Origin: an uncultured Saprospiraceae bacterium
GTDB taxonomy: Bacteria; Bacteroidota; Bacteroidia; Chitinophagales; Saprospiraceae
Direction: 5' to 3'
NCBI GenBank assembly: GCA_947311465.1
Contig: CAMZLN010000213.1
Coordinates: 1-33,318, forward strand
DNA length: 33,318 bases
A model generated the notes under the pieces. It was not told the origin of the DNA, did no database searches, and worked only from the letters and a program-made list of their open reading frames with translations. A program made the translations under genes and the position numbers. Positions 5,809 through 30,932 of this stretch are shown here, one piece after another (within the stretch, counting starts at the first letter, position 1; each line of letters opens with the position of its first letter).

Positions 5809-6834
5809 TTATGATTTCAATTGGAAAGTCTGCTTAATCCGCTCAACCAAGGTTGGGCCTTCAAAAATAAATCCTGAAAATAATTGGATTAACGAAGCTC
5901 CTGCTTCCATTTTCTCAACAGCGTCTTTTGGACTTGATATTCCGCCTACGCCGATGATAGTAAGATTTCCATTTGTTTTGGTATGTATATAACGGACGAC
6001 TTCTGTAGAACGCTGCTTCAATGGTTTGCCACTCAGTCCGCCGTTGCCGATTTGGTCAATTTTATCGCTACTAGTTGTCAAATTAGATCTAGAAATAGTC
6101 GTATTTGTAGCTATAATTCCAGCAAGCTTAGTTTGTTGAACAATTTCAATGATATCATCCAATTGCTCATTTGATAAATCAGGGGCTATTTTTAATAAAA
6201 TTGGTTTTGATTTTGAGTGAGCATGATTTAGTTTTTGTAAATGCGTCAACAACTCTGTCAATGGTTTTTTATCTTGAAGTGCTCTTAGGTTGGGAGTATT
6301 TGGAGAACTGATATTTATCACAAAATAATCTACGTAAGGAAATAATTTCTGAAAACAAATTTCATAATCATCAATTGCTTTTTCATTAGGAGTGTCTTTA
6401 TTTTTTCCAATATTTCCTCCAATGACAATATTTTTATTTTGAAGTTTTTTTAGATTTTCCACTAGATAATCAACGCCAAGATTATTGAATCCCATTCGAT
6501 TGATCAAGGCATTGTCTTCGGGCAATCTAAATAATCTAGGTTTTGGATTTCCGATTTGTGGAATAGGAGTAACGGTTCCCACTTCAATAAACCCAAAGCC
6601 CATTTTGTCTAAATTTTCGATATAGTCCCCATTTTTATCAAAACCCGCAGCTATTCCAATGGGATTTTTAAAAGTCAAACCCAAAAAAGATTTTTCCAGT
6701 CGTTTGTCTTCTTTAGAACTAAAAACTCCACCAAGTCCTAGTTTTCTCATTACAGTGAAAGATTTCATTGCAATTTGATGTGCAGATTCTGGTGAAAATA
6801 AAAAAAGAAATGGTTTTATTATTAATTTATACAC
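5809..6834 (-). CDS. pyrD: Dihydroorotate dehydrogenase (class 2, quinone-dependent)
   Basis: [16 protein letters not shown], [24 protein letters not shown], [46 protein letters not shown] motifs. GTG start. Confidence 0.96.
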
Positions 6835-7523
6835 TAGGCAATTTCAGATTTTAGTTTATCAAAGTCTCTTATTAATAATCGTTTTCTATCAAAAGTAAGG
6901 ATTTCATCATTTCTCAATTCATTCAAAGTAGTTGTAACTGTTTGACGAGATGTAGCAGTCAAATTTGCTATTTCTTGATGAGTTATAAATTTTCGAACTA
7001 CCATTTCATAACCAACTCTTTCTCCTTTTTCGTTCACATAGTCAATAATAAATTCGACAATTCTCGTTCTTGAATCTTTAAAAACAAGTGATTCTAAACG
7101 ACTTTCCATCTTCAATAAGCGACTTCCCATAATTTTTAGAAGAAACATATTCAAGCCATTATGATCTTTCACAAGCGCTTTCATTTCTGCTAGTTCCACC
7201 ACACAAACCGACACATTATCCATTACGTAAGCAAAATCTCGTCTTTTTTCTTCACCAGTCAATGCCAATTCTCCAAATACTTCACCTGCTCCAATAATTG
7301 CCTTAGTAATTTCTTTTCCAGAATCACTATATGCACCTATTTTCACACGACCTTTCGTAATAAAGAATATTTTATTTGAAATATCCTCGGGCCAATAAAT
7401 ATATTCACCTTTCTTGAAATGTTTAGTTATATGAGAATTATCATCAATGTTTCCCATTTTTTTAGGACAAAACAATACATCAATATTCTCTAGATACCAG
7501 AAACTTGTTTGATTATTCCCCAT
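6834..7523 (-). CDS. Crp/Fnr family transcriptional regulator
   Basis: N-terminal cNMP-binding fold ([52 protein letters not shown]) and winged HTH ([29 protein letters not shown]). Confidence 0.9.
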
Positions 7524-21837: not shown

Positions 21838-22881
21838 TTAATTAGGCATATTTTTAAGTTTATCAGAATCTAAGACTTTAATAATTCCTTTTTCTATACT
21901 AATAATATTTTCACTTTTAAAATCGGATAAAGTTCTAATCACACTTTCTTTTGCGGTACCAACTAGGTTTGCCAAATCGTCACGTAAAATAGAAAATTCC
22001 TTTTTTTCATTTTGACTACAAACGTAAACCAATGCATCTGCTACACGTTTTCTTATTGAATTGTAGGCAAGTTTCAATAATTGATTTTCTTTATCTACTA
22101 CATTATTTGATAAAATTTTAATAAATTGAGAAGCAAAGTCTTGATTTTTATACAATAAGTGGAAAAAATCTTCTTGACTAACAAAAGCAATTTCTGTTTC
22201 TTCTAAAGCAATTGTAGTTTCATCATACTTCTCCCCCTTTAACAATCCAAGATAACCAAAGAAGTCACCTTTTTTATAAATGTCCGTTATGTAATCTTTT
22301 CCCTCATCGTTGGTTAAAAAAGCTTTTACTCTTCCATGTAGAATATAGAATATTTTTCTTGGATACTGACCAACTTCATAAATTCTTTCCTTTTTAAAAT
22401 AAGTTTTATGTTCACTTTGTTCGGAGATATCTTTTAATTCAGAAAGACCTTTTGCTTCATTGACAAAAGTACGTAGACCTTCTAGGGTTCCATCAAATGC
22501 TTTGATTAATCTTTCCCTTTTCTTCAACCTAACTTCTATAGCATCCAGTAATTCGACATCACTAAAAGGCTTCATAATATAATCATCTGCACCAAGCAAC
22601 ATTCCTTTTCGAAAATCTTCACGTTCCGTTTTCGCTGTAAGAAAAATAAAAGGGATATCAGCAGTTTTAGGATTATGGCTTAAAATATGCAGCATTCCAT
22701 AACCATCCAAAACAGGCATCATTACATCACAAAGAATAAGATCAGGAATATGTTCAATGGCAAGTTGCGCCCCAATTTTTCCATTTTCTGCAGTCACAAT
22801 ATCATAGCCTGATAACTCTAATAATTCAGCAATATTTTCTTTTACTTCGACATTATCTTCTACAACTAATATTTTTTTCAT
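21838..22881 (-). CDS. Response regulator: CheY-like receiver fused to cNMP-binding/CRP-type winged HTH
   Basis: Receiver KKILVVEDN...DLILCDVMMPVLDGYG...FIFLTAKTE...GADDYIMKPF; then effector-domain-like FKKERIYEVGQYPRKIFYILHGRVKAFLTNDEGKDYITDIYKKGDFFGYLGLL and HTH ILRDDLANLVGTAKESVIRTLSDFKSENII. Confidence 0.92.
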   Translation of the reverse strand: MKKILVVEDNVEVKENIAELLELSGYDIVTAENGKIGAQLAIEHIPDLILCDVMMPVLDGYGMLHILSHNPKTADIPFIFLTAKTEREDFRKGMLLGADDYIMKPFSDVELLDAIEVRLKKRERLIKAFDGTLEGLRTFVNEAKGLSELKDISEQSEHKTYFKKERIYEVGQYPRKIFYILHGRVKAFLTNDEGKDYITDIYKKGDFFGYLGLLKGEKYDETTIALEETEIAFVSQEDFFHLLYKNQDFASQFIKILSNNVVDKENQLLKLAYNSIRKRVADALVYVCSQNEKKEFSILRDDLANLVGTAKESVIRTLSDFKSENIISIEKGIIKVLDSDKLKNMPN

Positions 22882-24194
22882 AATTTTTGATTAATTTTTA
22901 CTTCCCAATATTCTTTTTTAGAATTAAACTTTACAGGAATTCTTATACAAAAAGTACTACCGACTTGATATTCACTTTTAAAAGTAACCTTTCCCCCCAT
23001 ACGTTCAATATAGTTCTGCACTATCGACAACCCCAATCCTGTCCCTTTAATGTTTTGGACGTTTTTTGCTCTAAAAAACCGTGTAAACAAATAAATTTGA
23101 TCTTCATCAGGAATACCAATTCCTTCGTCTTTTATTTCAATTACAAATTCATCCCCAGATATCCAGCTATTGAAATAAATAGTTTGATTTTCCTTTGAAT
23201 ATTTTACCGCATTAGAGATTAGATTAAAAATACCGTGACTTAACATCCCTTCGTCAAAAAACAATGGAATTTTTTTTTGACGATGGCTCTGAATAATCCT
23301 TTGCCCAGACTTTAGCAAAACATTTGCTTCCTTTTCAATTTTTTTTACAAACTCATCCCAACAAAACAACACTTCTTTCATATCAAGTTGACCATCTTCT
23401 GCTTTACTATAAAAAAGAAAATCTTCCAATATACCAGTCAAAGTATTTATAGCTTGTTTTATTCTTGCCAGATGTCTATCTCTTTTTGGTTGCTCATCTG
23501 TGGTAATATACCTTCCCAATAAGCCTACCGAAGAAAGAATAACACTCAAAGGTGTTCTAAATTCGTGAGAAGCCATAGAAACAAATCGTGATTTCAAATC
23601 ATTTAATTCTCGTTCTTTAGTAAGAGCGAGTTTTATTTCAGACTCGCGTATTTTCAATTTATTTTCAAAATGCTTTCTTTCTGCAATTTCAGTTTTTAAT
23701 CTATTATTGGTTTCAAGAAGTTTATTGATAGCCCGAGACAATTCATCCGTTCTATCCTTTACTAAATTTTCTAATGTAGCATTAGAAGCTTTTAAATCTG
23801 ATTGAATATTCTTAATTTCGGTTAAATCGTAAATAATTCCTGTGAAATAGATTTCATCACCTAATGTAAATTCACTAACAGAAAGTCTTATTGGAAAAAC
23901 GCTACCATCTTTTTTTTGCCCGACAGCCTCTCTACCGATTCCTACAATTCGTTTCTTGCCATGTTTGTGATAATTTTCAAGGTATGAATCATGCTCCGTC
24001 TTAAACGGAGCAGGCATAAGTGTTGAAATATTCTTACCAATCAACTCTTTAGGTGTATAGCCAAATGTATTTAAAACTGCCTTGTTAATACTTACAATTA
24101 TTCCTCTTTGATTAATAGTAATAATAACGTCTATTGCAGCTTCAATAACTGCCTTTAATTTTTGTTCACCTGCTTGTTCAAATTTCGTTGGCAT
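22878..24194 (-). CDS. PAS-domain sensor histidine kinase (FixL-like PAS)
   Basis: PAS (AAIDVIITINQRGIIVSINKAVLNTFGYTPKELIGKNIS...IVGIGREAVGQKKDGSVFPIRLSVSEF), H-box ASHEFRTPLSVI, N/G boxes NLISNAVKYS, DEGIGIPDE, GTGLGLSIV. ATGA overlap with the downstream regulator gene. Confidence 0.94.
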   Translation of the reverse strand: MPTKFEQAGEQKLKAVIEAAIDVIITINQRGIIVSINKAVLNTFGYTPKELIGKNISTLMPAPFKTEHDSYLENYHKHGKKRIVGIGREAVGQKKDGSVFPIRLSVSEFTLGDEIYFTGIIYDLTEIKNIQSDLKASNATLENLVKDRTDELSRAINKLLETNNRLKTEIAERKHFENKLKIRESEIKLALTKERELNDLKSRFVSMASHEFRTPLSVILSSVGLLGRYITTDEQPKRDRHLARIKQAINTLTGILEDFLFYSKAEDGQLDMKEVLFCWDEFVKKIEKEANVLLKSGQRIIQSHRQKKIPLFFDEGMLSHGIFNLISNAVKYSKENQTIYFNSWISGDEFVIEIKDEGIGIPDEDQIYLFTRFFRAKNVQNIKGTGLGLSIVQNYIERMGGKVTFKSEYQVGSTFCIRIPVKFNSKKEYWEVKINQKL

Positions 24195-24328
24195 GGGTTA
24201 TTATTTAACTATTCGTCATGATTTGATAATGGATTTAACTATAATTCTTTGGGTAACTCACATTTTAATTTTGTAAATTTTCGTTTAGACGTGAGATACA
24301 AAAAAACGTCTATTAAATAGGAAAAATA

Positions 24329-24342
24329 GTGACAAAAGTCAT
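24329..24342 (+). promoter_or_regulatory. Candidate CRP/FNR-family binding site (GTGACAAAAGTCAT)
   Basis: Palindromic TGAC-AAAA-GTCA in the divergent kinase/CBS intergenic region; closely matches the site at 28526-28539. Confidence 0.5.
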
Positions 24343-24489
24343 TATTTCTAATGAACAATATCATTCAATCTATTTTATAGAATGTTGACCTTGCATATAT
24401 TAAGGAACGATGATTAAATAAATCTTTAGATTTTTTACAGTTCCTAAAATTGAATTTCAATAAATTATTTTAACAAAATCGACATAATT

Positions 24490-24906
24490 ATGAATTTATT
24501 ATCACCAGTTTCAGAATTAATGACTAAGAATTTGATAACTGTAAATTCAAATGATTCTCTCTTTACTGTAAAAGAAAAATTTGATGCAGGACAATTTCAT
24601 CATTTACCAGTTGTAAATGGTAAACTTTTATTAGGAATAATTAGCAAATCAGATCTTTTATATTTTTTAGAAGGAATGAAAGAAAAGGACGCAAACGATG
24701 CTATTCTTAATGATTTAGTTGCCGAAAAAATTATGACAAAAGGATTGGCTAAAGTTGAAAGTACGGATAGAATTAATGTAGCCTTAGAAGTATTTAAAGT
24801 AAATCTTTTCCATGCGATTCCTGTAGTAGACAATAATGAATTGGTAGGAATATTGACAACCTATGATATCATAAAAGCTTTAGCGGATGGCAATTTAACC
24901 CAATAA
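24490..24906 (+). CDS. Tandem CBS domain protein
   Basis: Two CBS repeats: PVSELMTKNLITVNSNDSLFTVKEKFDAGQFHHLPVVNGKLLLGIISKSDLL and VAEKIMTKGLAKVESTDRINVALEVFKVNLFHAIPVVDNNELVGILTTYDIIKAL. Confidence 0.92.
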   Translation: MNLLSPVSELMTKNLITVNSNDSLFTVKEKFDAGQFHHLPVVNGKLLLGIISKSDLLYFLEGMKEKDANDAILNDLVAEKIMTKGLAKVESTDRINVALEVFKVNLFHAIPVVDNNELVGILTTYDIIKALADGNLTQ

Positions 24907-24913
24907 ACCATAG

Positions 24914-25936
24914 ATGAACCAAATCACATTGATTGGAATAAAAAACGATCAATATACTTATTTTAAAAACGAATTATCTAAAGCATTGACTCTTATGGAT
25001 GAGCCATATCATCTTACAGAAGTCAATGCCTTGGATGCTATTGTAGAATCAGAACTAGAATCAATTCCAGCTTTGTTTATTAATGGTAAATTGGTTTTTG
25101 TGGTGAATGGATACGTGCCCGATGTTAATGAAATTTTACAAAGTTTAAAAAAATTTGTTGCTCCTATTACAGCATTAAATAGCATACTTATACCTATAGA
25201 CTTTTCTGAGATTTCAAAAAATGCATTTATATACGGTCAAAATATGGCGCACCATTATGGACAAGCCATACATGTAATTCATGTCACTCCATCACTCAGT
25301 ACAAAACTAGGATTTGCTGATCCAATTGGTATAAAAACCAAGAATCTTCGAAAAACCGTGGAACAGAATATAATCTCAAATAATTTGAAAATTTCAACAG
25401 ATATAGTCAAAGGAAATGTTGTCAATGGTATTATAAATAGTGCACAAAAGCGTGATACAGATTTTATTGTAATGGGTACAACAGGTAAAACAAATAATAC
25501 ATTTTTAGGAAGTATTTCAAGAAAAATTAGCTTAAACAAAAAATATCCGACTTTTTTAATTCCAGAAAACTATTTATTTACTCCTTTTTCAAAAATTGTC
25601 TTTGCAGGACATTTGAATACTCAAAATCAAAAATTAGCAGAAAAGCTATCAGAATCCAAACTGTTTTCGCAAGCGATGATTAATATTGTTGAGATAAAAG
25701 TACAACAGGATGTGAAGTTTAAAGAAATATCCAATAAAAAGACAAAAAATTATTCTAAAATCTTAATTCAAGACAACGATGTTGTTTCTGGACTTACTAC
25801 TTTTATTAAAAAGATTGATGCTGATTTATTAATTATGTATAAACCAAGTAAGCCTTTTTGGCAAAATATTTTCCATAAGAGTACCACAAAAAAAATTCAC
25901 AATGAAATCAAAATTCCTCTATTATTATTACATTAG
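24914..25936 (+). CDS. Universal stress (UspA-like) protein with N-terminal degenerate thioredoxin-like domain
   Basis: UspA region: ILIPIDFSEISKNAFIYGQNMAHHYGQAIHVIHVTP...DFIVMGTTGKTNNTFLGSISRKI. N-terminal ~85 aa ends in SIPALFINGKLVFVVNGYVPDVNEILQSL, resembling the cis-Pro half of a Trx fold. Confidence 0.75.
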   Translation: MNQITLIGIKNDQYTYFKNELSKALTLMDEPYHLTEVNALDAIVESELESIPALFINGKLVFVVNGYVPDVNEILQSLKKFVAPITALNSILIPIDFSEISKNAFIYGQNMAHHYGQAIHVIHVTPSLSTKLGFADPIGIKTKNLRKTVEQNIISNNLKISTDIVKGNVVNGIINSAQKRDTDFIVMGTTGKTNNTFLGSISRKISLNKKYPTFLIPENYLFTPFSKIVFAGHLNTQNQKLAEKLSESKLFSQAMINIVEIKVQQDVKFKEISNKKTKNYSKILIQDNDVVSGLTTFIKKIDADLLIMYKPSKPFWQNIFHKSTTKKIHNEIKIPLLLLH

Positions 25937-25995
25937 TTAAAACAATATGATTATTATGGTGTTTTGCGAGTATTTTAAATTGGGAAGAATAGACA

Positions 25996-28380
25996 ATGAG
26001 TGAAATTTTAAATTCGAACAATAATACACAAAACACAGACGTCAAGTGTTTTCATTGCGGGACTCCTTGCAATGAAATTGATATTGTTGTTGAAGAAAAG
26101 CATTTTTGCTGCAACGGCTGTCAATTAGTATATGAAATTCTCAATCAAAATGATTTATGCAACTATTACGATTTAGAATCAAATCCAGGATATTCTTTAA
26201 AAGGAAAAAGAAAAAATCAATATGCTTATCTTGATAATGAAAATATAAAAGACCAATTAATTGATTTTGAAAATGATGATATAATAAAAATCAGTTTCCC
26301 ATTACCTTCCATTCATTGTTCGTCATGTATTTGGTTATTAGAAAATCTTTATAAGTTGAACACAGGAATTCAACAATCAAGAATCAATTTTACAAAAAAA
26401 GAAGGCTACTTTATCCTTGACAAAAAGACAATATCCCTTAGAGAATTAGTTGAGATTCTTGATTCCATCGGATATCCGCCTGCAATAAATTTTGGGTCAC
26501 TAGATGAAAAAGAGCAACCACAAAAACTCAGTAAAACATTCTCATATCAAATAGCTATTGCAGGATTTGCATTTGGAAATATAATGATGCTTAGTTTTCC
26601 TGAATACCTAGGTTTAGAAAAAGGAAATTTTAAACAAATTTTCAGTTATATCATGGTTGTTTTGTCTTTGCCCGTAATTTTTTATAGTGCCAAGGACTAT
26701 TTTCTTTCCGCATGGACTGGAATTAAAGAAAAATATCTCAATATTGACTTTCCAATTTCTTTAGGAATAATCACTCTTTTTCTACGTAGCTTATTTGAAA
26801 TTTTCTTTTTGCAAGAAGCGGGTTATTTGGATAGTTTAGCGGGTTTAGTATTTTTCCTTTTAATAGGAAAATGGTTTCAACAAAAAACATATCATCAACT
26901 TTCATTTGATAGAGATTATAAATCATACTTCCCAATAGCAACCAATGTAATTCGTGATGAAAAAGAAATCCCAACCCCGTTAAATAAGTTGGTCGTAGGC
27001 AATCTGATTATTGTAAAACATCAAGAATTAATACCTGCTGATGGTATTTTAACCAAAGGGAAAGCTTTAGTAGATTATAGTTTTGTTACGGGAGAAGCTG
27101 ATCCTATTGAAAAGAACATTGGAGACAAAATTTTTGCAGGCGGACGTCAATTAGGTAAAAATATAGAGTTGACCGTCAATAAAAATGTAACCAATAGTTA
27201 TTTGACTCAGTTATGGAACAATGATTCTTTTAAAGATTCTGATTCCCAATTATCCAAATTCGCAGATAAGGTGGGGCGAATATTTACTGGATTTATTCTA
27301 TCTGTAGCAATATTATCTCTCTTTTATTGGGTGCCTAAAGATTTAAGTATAGCCATAAATGTATTCACATCTGTATTAATTATTGCATGTCCATGTGCTG
27401 TAGCTTTAACTATACCTTTTACTTATGGTAATATTGTTCGCCTTTTTGGATTAAATCAGTTTTACTTAAAAAACACGAATGTTATAGAAGATATGCAAGA
27501 AATTGATCATATTATTTTTGATAAAACAGGTACGATTACAGACACTTCAAATACTCAAATTTCCTTCAATGGAAAAATGACCAAAATACAAAAAAACATG
27601 GTTTTATCTATTACAAATCAATCTACACATCCAAAAAGTAGAGAGATTAGTCTATATTTAAATGAATTTGAGATCTTAGAAATTGATAAAGTAGAAGAAA
27701 TAGTAGGACTTGGAATCACTGGCAAAATTGGTAATCATAATATAAAAATTGGCTCGGCAAAATTTTTAGATCAGCGTCACAGCGATAATAAAGGAGTCTT
27801 TGTCGCTATCAATGATGAAATTTTAGGCGTATTTACTTTTCAACATCAATATAGAAAAGATTTTATCACTATAGTTGAACAGCTCAAGAAAAAATATACA
27901 CTTTCTATTTTATCAGGAGATAACGATAGTGAAAAGCAATATTTAGAACAATATTTTGATCATCTACTGTTTAATCAAAGTCCACAAGATAAATTAGATT
28001 ATGTTCAAAATTTACAAGAAAATGGCAAAAAAGTAATGATGATTGGAGATGGTTTAAATGATGCTGGTGCACTTCAAAAAAGTGACGCGGGAATTGTCAT
28101 AACTGAAAATATTAATAATTTCACTCCCGCCTGTAAAGGAATTATTTCTGCAAATAAATTTGGTAAAATTCCTGATTATCTCACTTTTTCAAATAAAAGT
28201 GTAAATTTAATCATTGCTGCCTATATACTGGCTGCCATATACAATATAATAGGATTGAGTTTTGCTGTCCAAGGTTTGCTTTCTCCTGTGGTCGCTGCGA
28301 TTTTAATGCCCTTGAGTTCAATTACTATTGCTGCATTTGGCGTTTTTTCAAGTAATATTGTAGGAAAAAGATATCTATAG
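25996..28380 (+). CDS. ccoI: Copper-translocating P-type ATPase for cbb3 oxidase assembly (CcoI/FixI)
   Basis: N-terminal CFHCGTPC...HFCCNGCQLVYEIL, HMA-like IHCSSCIWLLENL, membrane CPC (IIACPCAVALTIPF), DKTGT, MMIGDGLNDAGAL; adjacent to ccoS/ccoNO. Confidence 0.95.
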   Translation: MSEILNSNNNTQNTDVKCFHCGTPCNEIDIVVEEKHFCCNGCQLVYEILNQNDLCNYYDLESNPGYSLKGKRKNQYAYLDNENIKDQLIDFENDDIIKISFPLPSIHCSSCIWLLENLYKLNTGIQQSRINFTKKEGYFILDKKTISLRELVEILDSIGYPPAINFGSLDEKEQPQKLSKTFSYQIAIAGFAFGNIMMLSFPEYLGLEKGNFKQIFSYIMVVLSLPVIFYSAKDYFLSAWTGIKEKYLNIDFPISLGIITLFLRSLFEIFFLQEAGYLDSLAGLVFFLLIGKWFQQKTYHQLSFDRDYKSYFPIATNVIRDEKEIPTPLNKLVVGNLIIVKHQELIPADGILTKGKALVDYSFVTGEADPIEKNIGDKIFAGGRQLGKNIELTVNKNVTNSYLTQLWNNDSFKDSDSQLSKFADKVGRIFTGFILSVAILSLFYWVPKDLSIAINVFTSVLIIACPCAVALTIPFTYGNIVRLFGLNQFYLKNTNVIEDMQEIDHIIFDKTGTITDTSNTQISFNGKMTKIQKNMVLSITNQSTHPKSREISLYLNEFEILEIDKVEEIVGLGITGKIGNHNIKIGSAKFLDQRHSDNKGVFVAINDEILGVFTFQHQYRKDFITIVEQLKKKYTLSILSGDNDSEKQYLEQYFDHLLFNQSPQDKLDYVQNLQENGKKVMMIGDGLNDAGALQKSDAGIVITENINNFTPACKGIISANKFGKIPDYLTFSNKSVNLIIAAYILAAIYNIIGLSFAVQGLLSPVVAAILMPLSSITIAAFGVFSSNIVGKRYL

Positions 28381-28525
28381 AAACCAGACAGAACCTTTAT
28401 TATACGATAATTGGTGATAATATATCTGAAATATAAATTAGTTTCTTTTTTTTTATCGAACATATTTTTGCTAATTCCGTATTAATCGACTTAGGGATAT
28501 TTTACAGAAGTAAATATGTCGATAT

Positions 28526-28539
28526 GTGACAAAAATCAT
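28526..28539 (+). promoter_or_regulatory. Candidate CRP/FNR-family binding site (GTGACAAAAATCAT) upstream of ccoS
   Basis: 13/14 identity to the site at 24329-24342; center 22 bp upstream of the site at 28548-28561. Confidence 0.5.
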
Positions 28540-28547
28540 TTTTTTTT

Positions 28548-28561
28548 TTGATGAGAATCAC
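28548..28561 (+). promoter_or_regulatory. Candidate FNR-like box (TTGATGAGAATCAC) upstream of ccoS
   Basis: Matches TTGAT-N4-ATCAA at 9 of 10 positions; about 42 bp upstream of the inferred transcription start. Confidence 0.55.
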
Positions 28562-28564
28562 TAA

Positions 28565-28591
28565 TTGAAGTTAATGATTTTCCTACTTTTG
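28565..28591 (+). promoter_or_regulatory. Candidate Bacteroidetes-type promoter for ccoS-ccoNO (TTG ... TACTTTTG)
   Basis: TACTTTTG (28584-28591) fits the TAnnTTTG -7 element, with TTG (28565-28567) upstream at plausible -33 spacing; 20 bp before the ccoS ATG. Confidence 0.5.
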
Positions 28592-28610
28592 TGTATTGAA
28601 ATAATTATTT

Positions 28611-28781
28611 ATGAAAATAATATTCGGATTAATTGCAATAAGTTTTGTAATTGCTATAGGTTTTTTGATTTCTTTTTTTTGGGCGGTTAAATCAGGTCAA
28701 TATGACGATGATTATACACCATCCGTCCGAATGCTATTTGACGATGAATTAATAAATAATAAAAATAATAAAACAGAATAA
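28611..28781 (+). CDS. ccoS: cbb3-type cytochrome oxidase assembly protein CcoS
   Basis: MKIIFGLIAISFVIAIGFLISFFWAVKSGQYDDDYTPSVRMLFDDELINNKNNKTE*: TM followed by the AVKSGQYDD...P..RML.DD CcoS signature. Missed by ORF track (56 aa). Confidence 0.9.
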   Translation: MKIIFGLIAISFVIAIGFLISFFWAVKSGQYDDDYTPSVRMLFDDELINNKNNKTE

Positions 28782-28802: not shown

Positions 28803-30932
28803 ATGTCAAACATGGAACAATTTAGTTACGACAATAAAATCGTACGAAATTTTGCACTAGCTACTATCATTTGGGCCTTGGTCGGAATGTCCGTTGGGCT
28901 TTGGGCTGCAATTGAACTTTATTTCCCCTCGATGAATCTCGATTTATCTTGGTTAACATTTGGTCGTATCCGACCTCTTCATACCAATGCAGTGATTTTT
29001 GCTTTTGTTGGAAATGGAATTTTTATGGGAGTTTATTACTCCTTACAACGACTAGTAAAAGCTAGGATGTACAGTGACACACTTTCAAAAATACATTTTT
29101 GGGGGTGGAATTTTATTATTGTACTCGCTGCTATTACTTTGCCATTAGGTTATACTCAATCCGGAGAATATGCAGAACTTTCATGGCCAATAGATATTAT
29201 GATTGCGGTTGTTTGGATTATTTTTGGTATCAATATGTTTGGTACAATGATTAAGAGAAGAGAAAATCACTTATATGTTGCCATTTGGTTTTATATTGCT
29301 ACATGGGTTACAGTGACTGTTCTTCATGTATTTAAGAGTTTAGCCATACCAATTGCTTTGACATCATTGACTAGTTATCCAGTGTATTCTGGGGTTACAG
29401 ATGCCTTAGTTCAATGGTGGTATGGTCATAATGCAGTTGCATTTTTCTTGACTACACCCTATTTAGGATTAATGTATTATTTTATGCCTAAGGCGGCCAA
29501 TAGACCCGTTTATTCATATAAGCTTTCTATCATTCACTTTTGGTCGTTGATTTTTATCTACATTTGGGCAGGTCCACACCATTTATTATACACATCATTA
29601 CCCGATTGGGCTCAATCATTAGGAACTGTATTTTCAATCTCATTAGTTGCTCCATCTTGGGGGGGGATGTTAAATGGTTTATTGACACTAAGAGGTGCAT
29701 GGGATAGAGTAAGAGAAGACCCGATTTTAAAATTTATGGTTGTAGCCGTAACCGCTTATGGTATGTCAACCTTTGAGGGACCGATGCTTTCCATAAAATC
29801 AATTAATGCGATAAGTCATTTTACAGATTGGACTGTTGCCCATGTACATATTGGTACATTAGGTTGGAATGGAATGTTAACTTTTGGTATTTTGTATTGG
29901 TTGATTCCTAGAATTTATAATACAAAATTACATTCTGTATCTAGTGCTAATACACACTTTTGGTTAAGTACTTTAGGATTGTTGTTTTATTCAGTTCCAT
30001 TATACTGGGCTGGTTGGACACAAAGTTTGATGTGGAAACAATTTAATGCAGACGGATTTTTACAATACAATGAATTCCTTTCAACAGTAACTCGAATCTT
30101 ACCAATGTACGGAATGAGAATTATTGGGGGAACAATTTATCTTACAGGAGTTATTTTGATGACAATCAACTTGAAGAAAACAATGAACTCTGGTAAATTG
30201 ATTGAAAATGAAGCCGCAGAAGCACCTGCGAGAGTAAAATATGTCAAACACGCAGGAGAGCATTGGCATAGATTAGTAGAAAGACGTCCTATGCAAATGT
30301 TACTTTGGGCTACAATAACTATTTTAATTGGTGGTTTTGTAGAATATTTCCCATTAGTAATGGTGGATGACAATATTCCTAAGATTGATTCTGTAATGCC
30401 ATATACTCCACTAGAATTAGAAGGACGAGATATTTATATTAGAGAAGGTTGTGTAAGTTGTCACTCTCAACAAATACGACCATTTAGATCAGAGACGGTA
30501 CGTTATGGTGAGTATTCAAAAGCTGGAGAAGCAATCTATGATCGACCATTTTTGTGGGGGTCAAAAAGAACAGGTCCAGATTTAGCGAGAGAAGGAGAAC
30601 GTAAACGAAGTCATGGATGGCATTATGATCACTTGAGAGATCCTAGAGAGATTTCTGATGGTTCAATCATGCCTAATTATCCATGGTTGATATCAGATGA
30701 TCTTGACACAGGTTATTTAATTGCAAAAATAAAGACTTTACAGTTGTTGGGCACACCATATCCAGAAGGCTATGCGGAAATCGCTCATGATGATTTAGTC
30801 GCTCAGGCAAAACAAATCGCAGATGAGTTAAGAGCAGAAAAGAAAATTCCAATGGAAGGAGTAGAAAATAAAGAGATTATTGCAGTTATCGCATATCTCC
30901 AAAGATTGGGAACTGATATTAGTGCAGAATAA
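28803..30932 (+). CDS. ccoNO: cbb3-type cytochrome c oxidase subunits I and II fused (CcoNO)
   Basis: CcoN region (FGRIRPLHTNAVIFAFVGNGIFMGVYY, VQWWYGHNAVAFFLTTPYLG, GPHHLLYTSLPDW, WTVAHVHIGTLGWNGM) continuing in one frame into CcoO (GRDIYIREGCVSCHSQQIRPFRSETVRYGEYSKAGE). Confidence 0.96.
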   Translation: MSNMEQFSYDNKIVRNFALATIIWALVGMSVGLWAAIELYFPSMNLDLSWLTFGRIRPLHTNAVIFAFVGNGIFMGVYYSLQRLVKARMYSDTLSKIHFWGWNFIIVLAAITLPLGYTQSGEYAELSWPIDIMIAVVWIIFGINMFGTMIKRRENHLYVAIWFYIATWVTVTVLHVFKSLAIPIALTSLTSYPVYSGVTDALVQWWYGHNAVAFFLTTPYLGLMYYFMPKAANRPVYSYKLSIIHFWSLIFIYIWAGPHHLLYTSLPDWAQSLGTVFSISLVAPSWGGMLNGLLTLRGAWDRVREDPILKFMVVAVTAYGMSTFEGPMLSIKSINAISHFTDWTVAHVHIGTLGWNGMLTFGILYWLIPRIYNTKLHSVSSANTHFWLSTLGLLFYSVPLYWAGWTQSLMWKQFNADGFLQYNEFLSTVTRILPMYGMRIIGGTIYLTGVILMTINLKKTMNSGKLIENEAAEAPARVKYVKHAGEHWHRLVERRPMQMLLWATITILIGGFVEYFPLVMVDDNIPKIDSVMPYTPLELEGRDIYIREGCVSCHSQQIRPFRSETVRYGEYSKAGEAIYDRPFLWGSKRTGPDLAREGERKRSHGWHYDHLRDPREISDGSIMPNYPWLISDDLDTGYLIAKIKTLQLLGTPYPEGYAEIAHDDLVAQAKQIADELRAEKKIPMEGVENKEIIAVIAYLQRLGTDISAE

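Follow-up and report, generated by a model that had tools for sequence, protein, structure and literature searches.

The window analysed here is the whole 33,318-nucleotide stretch of contig CAMZLN010000213.1 (assembly GCA_947311465.1) from an uncultured Saprospiraceae bacterium. It encodes a response regulator in which a receiver (REC) domain is joined to a CRP-type DNA-binding part (REC-CRP), a FixL-like histidine kinase next to it, and, on the opposite strand, genes for a cbb3 oxidase and its accessory proteins. The subject of this work is a pair of short palindromes of the CRP/FNR type that is found in two intergenic regions of this gene group, which is laid out as follows.

21838..22881, minus strand: REC-cNMP-HTH_Crp response regulator (Pfam), the proposed binder
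22878..24194, minus strand: FixL-like PAS histidine kinase (best PDB match FixL heme-PAS 1d06)
24299..24306, minus strand: -7-like box TTTTTTTG of the kinase/regulator operon, one mismatch to TAnnTTTG, 36 bp from the start of the 24329-24342 site
24329..24342, no strand: strong operator half GTGACAAAAGTCAT, proximal for the kinase/regulator operon (minus strand), 10/10 consensus positions
24351..24364, no strand: operator half ATGAACAATATCAT, second copy 22 bp from the 24329 site, 9/10 consensus positions
24490..24906, plus strand: CBS-domain protein (Pfam), gene 1 of the divergent CBS-Usp-ccoI cluster
24914..25936, plus strand: thioredoxin-like/universal stress protein (Usp) fusion (Pfam PF13192 and PF00582)
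25996..28380, plus strand: CcoI-type copper P-type ATPase (Pfam E1-E2_ATPase, Hydrolase and ATPase-cat_bd)
28526..28539, no strand: distal operator half GTGACAAAAATCAT upstream of ccoS-ccoNO, 10/10 consensus positions
28548..28561, no strand: proximal operator half TTGATGAGAATCAC upstream of ccoS-ccoNO, 9/10 consensus positions, 22 bp from the distal site
28584..28591, plus strand: -7 box TACTTTTG, 58 bp from the start of the distal site and 36 bp from that of the proximal site
28611..28781, plus strand: ccoS, a small cbb3 assembly gene (open reading frame in the sequence, identity from position and length) and the first gene 3' of the second doublet
28803..30932, plus strand: ccoNO, a cbb3 oxidase fusion (open reading frame), with orthologues in 45 of the 80 family genomes

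The original prediction had marked the sites at 24329-24342, 28526-28539 and 28548-28561 as matches to GTGA-N6-TCA and had proposed the receiver-CRP fusion or another CRP/FNR protein as their binder. The letters and coordinates of all three sites agree with the sequence, and the centres of the last two are indeed 22 bp apart. However, the sites are better described by RTGAY-N4-RTCAY, with A preferred at position 1, and the copy at 24351-24364 had been missed. With this fourth site, both intergenic regions carry the same tandem operator, and the short palindrome is half of a two-site unit whose copies lie 22 bp apart. In the window, GTGA-N6-TCA occurs eight times compared to 4.25 expected, a count equalled in 5 of 100 shuffles, and this marginal statistic alone gives no ground for a claim. 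RTGAYN4RTCAY matches the window only twice, at 24329 and 28526, and has the TGA and TCA half-sites with six bases between them that characterize CRP/FNR-type operators.

A genome-wide motif scan and phylogenetic footprinting had been suggested as checks, and both spoke for the motif. In the 3.04-Mb genome, RTGAYN4RTCAY has 61 matches compared to 19 for the reversed control. The footprinting set consisted of the window and 80 loci around orthologues of the REC-CRP regulator, drawn from Saprospiraceae, Cytophagales, Chitinophagales and other Bacteroidota (1.39 Mb, of which 180 kb are intergenic). For intergenic enrichment, the motif ranked first among 840 permuted palindromes (spacers of 2-8), with 86 intergenic and 19 coding matches compared to permuted means of 3.5 and 18.8, and the runners-up were mostly shifted readings of the same motif. 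A spacer of 6 instead of 4 between the 5-mers abolished the enrichment (3 intergenic matches vs 86).

The palindromes tend to come in pairs. Around 117 strict sites, partners matching the consensus at 8 or more of its 10 positions were counted by centre-to-centre distance; a second copy was found at 22 bp in 65 cases and at 23 bp in 12, with 1-4 cases at other distances, and a few doublets in which both halves are strict enter this count from either side. In its doublet form (36 bp, up to three mismatches) the motif is enriched across the whole genome, with 19 matches compared to one for the reversed control. The two doublets of the window are the only ones in the genome with a single mismatch, the one at 24329-24364 (1 mismatch in 20 positions) being joint best. 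The weaker half at 28548-28561 is mirrored in relatives, where the partner in this position is equally weak. Three repeats in a row with 22-23 bp spacing were also seen at two other loci of the source genome, L200 (C66:15809-15866), adjoining Hsp20/ATP-grasp-like genes, and L196 (C337:20884-20942), adjoining a metallo-beta-lactamase/rhodanese-like gene, all of these names being taken from sequence resemblance. Two 36-bp doublet-like matches of this genome, C10:167-202 and C325:8329-8364, are identical, and the C10 copy, which lies inside a gene, was judged to be coding background.

The doublets stand at fixed distances from a promoter element. Up to about 120 bp from strict sites, 16 copies of TAnnTTTG lie exactly 58 bp and eight exactly 36 bp from the site start, with only one or two at any other distance; the difference of these two distances is 22 bp, i.e. 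the doublet spacing. The last four bases of the box, TTTG, occur 29 and 33 times at the 58-bp and 36-bp places, compared to a mean of 2.5 per offset, and the ccoS-ccoNO promoter is among the 16 with the full box at 58 bp. In Flavobacterium psychrophilum, mapped transcription starts place this box at -12 to -5 (PMC9723704). From this location and the fixed box offsets, centres of -41.5 and -63.5 follow for the proximal and the distal palindrome. The former value is where class II sites of CRP and FNR lie, so that the class II-like placement claimed for the proximal site agrees with the phasing to the -7 box, as a prediction that takes its box placement from the F. psychrophilum start map. Transcription of ccoS-ccoNO is accordingly predicted to start near 28596, which leaves 15 bases to the ccoS start at 28611, and that of the kinase operon near 24294 on the minus strand.

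Relatives keep the motif in front of the same genes. In 30 of their 80 loci, a strict site directly precedes the kinase gene, and in many of these a Usp or CBS gene runs divergently from its other side, as in the window; further strict sites precede ccoI, ccoN and ccoG. Upstream of ccoN, a strict site was found in 25 of 36 regulator-bearing genomes, including the source genome, and in one of five without the regulator, the latter being a fragmented assembly. Intergenic matches in the source genome precede, for example, genes for polyphosphate kinase 2, a nucleotide pyrophosphatase, multiheme cytochrome c, a rhodanese, an EF-G-type GTPase and a cupin. Among the targets are, in addition, hemA, hemN, Hsp20, DoxX-like and ScdA/RIC-type genes and sufB, several of which are named by sequence resemblance only. 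About half of the strict matches in 20 genome stretches are intragenic and were excluded from the regulon. Judged by these gene assignments, the target content is that expected of an FNR/FixK-like regulon.

The domains of the regulator, REC-cNMP-HTH_Crp, include PF00027 and PF13545 above the Pfam cut-off. A cNMP-type sensor fold followed by HTH_Crp with a Glu/Arg helix places it in the CRP/FNR protein family. The stretch AKESVIRTL is found at residues 310-318 and, as had been claimed, the recognition helix has the Glu and Arg of CRP-type proteins, with GTAKESVIR aligning with GCSRETVGR of CRP. Across 30 relatives, where this region is conserved, its G, T, K, E, I and R do not vary, and in a broader set of 41 G308, E312, I315 and R316 are invariant. 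In a phmmer alignment, Glu72 and Arg82 of CRP, which contact cyclic AMP (cAMP), are not conserved and correspond to a Tyr and an acidic residue. A reading of the regulator as a cAMP-responsive CRP was ruled out on account of these missing contacts, and the switch is probably the receiver instead of cAMP. The N-terminal cysteine cluster of FNR is not present in the regulator, whose N-terminus is the receiver domain. A single protein contains both the REC and the CRP domains, which differs from the FixLJ-FixK system, where FixJ is a separate protein of the REC-LuxR type that activates fixK. In the predicted structure (predicted local distance difference test score 82), a long dimer helix and a flexible linker join confident REC and HTH domains, and with a predicted template modelling score of 0.41 it does not fix the domain arrangement.

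The best PDB match of the kinase is the FixL heme-PAS domain 1d06 (E=6e-29). Its HDSY His and its GIGR Arg, which correspond to the heme ligand and the distal R220 of Bradyrhizobium FixL, align with FixL 1dp6 and 1d06, as expected of a FixL PAS domain. Oxygen sensing by the kinase of the source genome is therefore likely. The His-aligned region is conserved in most relatives' kinases, and the full FixL-like signature in part of them. Since the signature is only partly shared, oxygen sensing is uncertain for the group. In relatives outside Saprospiraceae, this part of the kinase is often a receiver domain or a PAS domain of another signature.

The number of doublets follows the presence of the regulator gene. 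Among the 80 family genomes, those with the regulator have 6.8 doublets per genome (control 0.8) and those without it 2.0 (control 0.5; p=1.4e-6); a further 69 genomes gave 5.5 and 1.6 (p=1.9e-5), and outside the family alone the association gives p=0.003, all by rank tests that ignore shared ancestry and genome size. The cbb3 oxidase is likewise present in 40 of 54 genomes with the regulator and in 5 of 26 without it (p=7e-6). Raw counts of single sites per genome did not separate regulator-bearing from regulator-less genomes because they are dominated by coding background; doublets do separate them.

These data bear on which protein binds the doublets, for which the source genome (an assembly 83.5% complete) offers four full CRP-family HTH proteins, namely the regulator, one protein each on contigs C258 and C151, and the one at 6834-7523 of the window. 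The last lacks the Glu/Arg pair in its recognition helix (SRQTVTTTL), so that a different DNA motif is expected for it, and it was considered and then set aside as a binder. The C258 protein (helix SSNAIR) was rejected because its orthologues, found in only about nine genomes, are too rare. The C151 protein has a canonical Glu/Arg helix (SRETISR), but its orthologues occur in 64 of the 80 genomes and do not track the doublets: genomes with a C151 orthologue and no REC-CRP have about 1.9 doublets on average, while five genomes with REC-CRP and no C151 orthologue have 3 to 10. Given also its very remote position from the REC-CRP clade in the tree, it is a highly improbable binder. A more serious candidate is a stand-alone FNR-like iron-sulfur protein, with REC-CRP co-occurring merely through shared low-oxygen biology. 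Such proteins are found near the same doublets and near ccoI in genomes without REC-CRP, and the CRP half of REC-CRP adjoins them in the tree. For the source genome this explanation is nevertheless unlikely, as no such FNR-type protein besides the regulator is among the four CRP-family HTH proteins of the 83.5% complete assembly, the doublet number tracks REC-CRP in two genome sets, and the REC-CRP operon itself is flanked by doublets. The adjacent REC-CRP regulator is thus most likely the binder, which agrees with the first of the two candidates in the original prediction, as the doublets follow its gene across genomes and the C151 protein does not explain them.

Two further alternatives concern the sites themselves. 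That they are chance AT-rich palindromes might have been suspected from the marginal enrichment of the loose GTGA-N6-TCA pattern in the window, but the doublet counts, the fixed spacing, the promoter phasing and the cross-phylum conservation refute this and leave it a negligible probability. The regulator could also act at the doublets mainly as a repressor or in a dual manner, for instance in negative autoregulation of the kinase/regulator operon. Repression is possible from promoter-near sites, and the site at the kinase promoter overlaps a region that the polymerase needs. The -41.5 phasing of the proximal site, however, which the cbb3 and kinase promoters share, is that of class II activation, and TAnnTTTG is kept where the operator occupies or abuts the -33 region; a mainly repressive or dual role is therefore improbable, if slightly less so than the FNR-like binder.

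We consider it quite probable that an oxygen-responsive FixL-type kinase/REC-CRP pair activates the cbb3 oxidase genes and itself via tandem CRP/FNR-type operators. For binding, phosphorylation, heme and oxygen sensing and activation, we infer the following course from the sequence comparisons. Given the FixL-like heme PAS domain of the kinase, low oxygen should raise phosphorylation, and phosphorylation of the receiver, rather than cAMP, would switch the regulator on. The palindrome pair, one member of which is usually the weaker, would then be occupied by two neighbouring dimers, and the proximal dimer would contact RNA polymerase as a class II activator. Genes switched on in this way would be those for the cbb3 oxidase, the accessory Usp, CBS and ccoI genes, stress genes and the kinase/regulator operon.

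Several findings weigh against this interpretation. About a third of the regulator-bearing relatives have no strict site upstream of ccoN, and genomes without REC-CRP still have doublets, some of these genomes encoding an FNR-like protein whose helix is of the same kind. The neglect of ancestry and genome size in the rank tests counts here as well. On the side of the signal, FixL R206 is replaced by Asn in the kinase, and the kinases of distant relatives have a less FixL-like PAS domain, or a REC domain instead (Pontibacter, Rufibacter). The -7 box toward the CBS gene is poor, which makes regulation in this direction less certain. Overall, the original observation stands and is stronger than first stated, and its interpretation is supported by comparative sequence evidence.

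Genomes with doublets and no REC-CRP often encode an FNR-like protein that stands alone, has N-terminal cysteines and carries the helix GTATETTIR or GTVKETAIR, and their doublets lie near the gene of this protein, near ccoI or upstream of ccoN. In the tree, the CRP halves of REC-CRP form one group next to the FNR-like proteins, with the C151 protein far away and many forks weakly supported. Such FNR-like proteins near doublets include those at L207, L208, L220 and L223, which have N-terminal cysteines and come from genomes of the same order, most of them without REC-CRP. The presence of FNR-like proteins beside doublets means that the operator is not exclusive to REC-CRP; lineages without it probably employ an FNR-like protein at the same operator, and one operator type appears to be served by related regulators with different sensors. 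A broader reading, which we put forward tentatively and rate somewhat below an even chance, would be an oxygen-response operator found throughout the phylum Bacteroidota. It would consist of two CRP-type palindromes exactly 22 bp apart and need two adjacent dimers, joined by receivers where these are present. In the course of evolution it would have been handed between two sensors, an Fe-S FNR-like one-component protein in some lineages and a FixL-type kinase with REC-CRP in others, with operator and promoter spacing unchanged.

Activation of cbb3 genes by CRP/FNR-type regulators is already a known kind of system. A literature search for Bacteroidota found no earlier account of the tandem sites, a REC-CRP fusion or an oxygen regulator; a fused REC-CRP output under a FixL-like kinase, together with a 22-bp tandem operator with fixed promoter phasing, is thus, as far as shown, undescribed in the literature searched. 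In F. psychrophilum, cbb3 and heme genes are induced by low oxygen, and no regulator is named in the available part of the source (PMC9723704). Low-oxygen sensing and the control of high-affinity oxidases in non-gut Bacteroidota are poorly known, and the present result supplies a concrete regulator, a base-pair-exact operator geometry, predicted start sites and a target list. Moreover, it provides an example in which the operator stays fixed while the sensor changes.

FNR and CRP class II promoters of Escherichia coli have TGA half-sites with N6 spacing, a Glu/Arg helix in the regulator and a site at -41.5, all of which are shared with the system described here. The latter differs in its tandem partner at -63.5, the Bacteroidota TAnnTTTG promoter and a receiver-domain switch in a regulator with neither the cAMP residues nor the FNR cysteine cluster. 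The stand-alone FNR-like proteins of Bacteroidota resemble the regulator in their related CRP domain, a similar helix and the same doublets near cco genes, but they lack a receiver, and their N-terminal cysteines suggest direct Fe-S oxygen sensing. ArcA is likewise an aerobic/anaerobic response regulator with repeats one or two helical turns apart, including 22 bp (PMC3798270), but it is of the OmpR/PhoB type and acts on direct repeats, whereas whole palindromes are repeated here. In Saprospiraceae, CRP/FNR proteins were earlier predicted for carbon sensing using the Bacteroides MalR matrix (PMC8510549); protein family and bacterial family are the same, whereas the present operator and regulon point to oxygen. 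With the FixL-FixJ-FixK cascade of rhizobia (PMC4999443), the system shares the FixL-like PAS kinase as input and, as output, a CRP/FNR-type regulator, a TGA-N6-TCA palindrome and cbb3 oxidase targets. Here, however, the receiver and the CRP-type DNA-binding part are one protein, so that FixJ and FixK are condensed to one step, and tandem pairs of RTGAYN4RTCAY at 22 bp take the place of single TTGA-type boxes.

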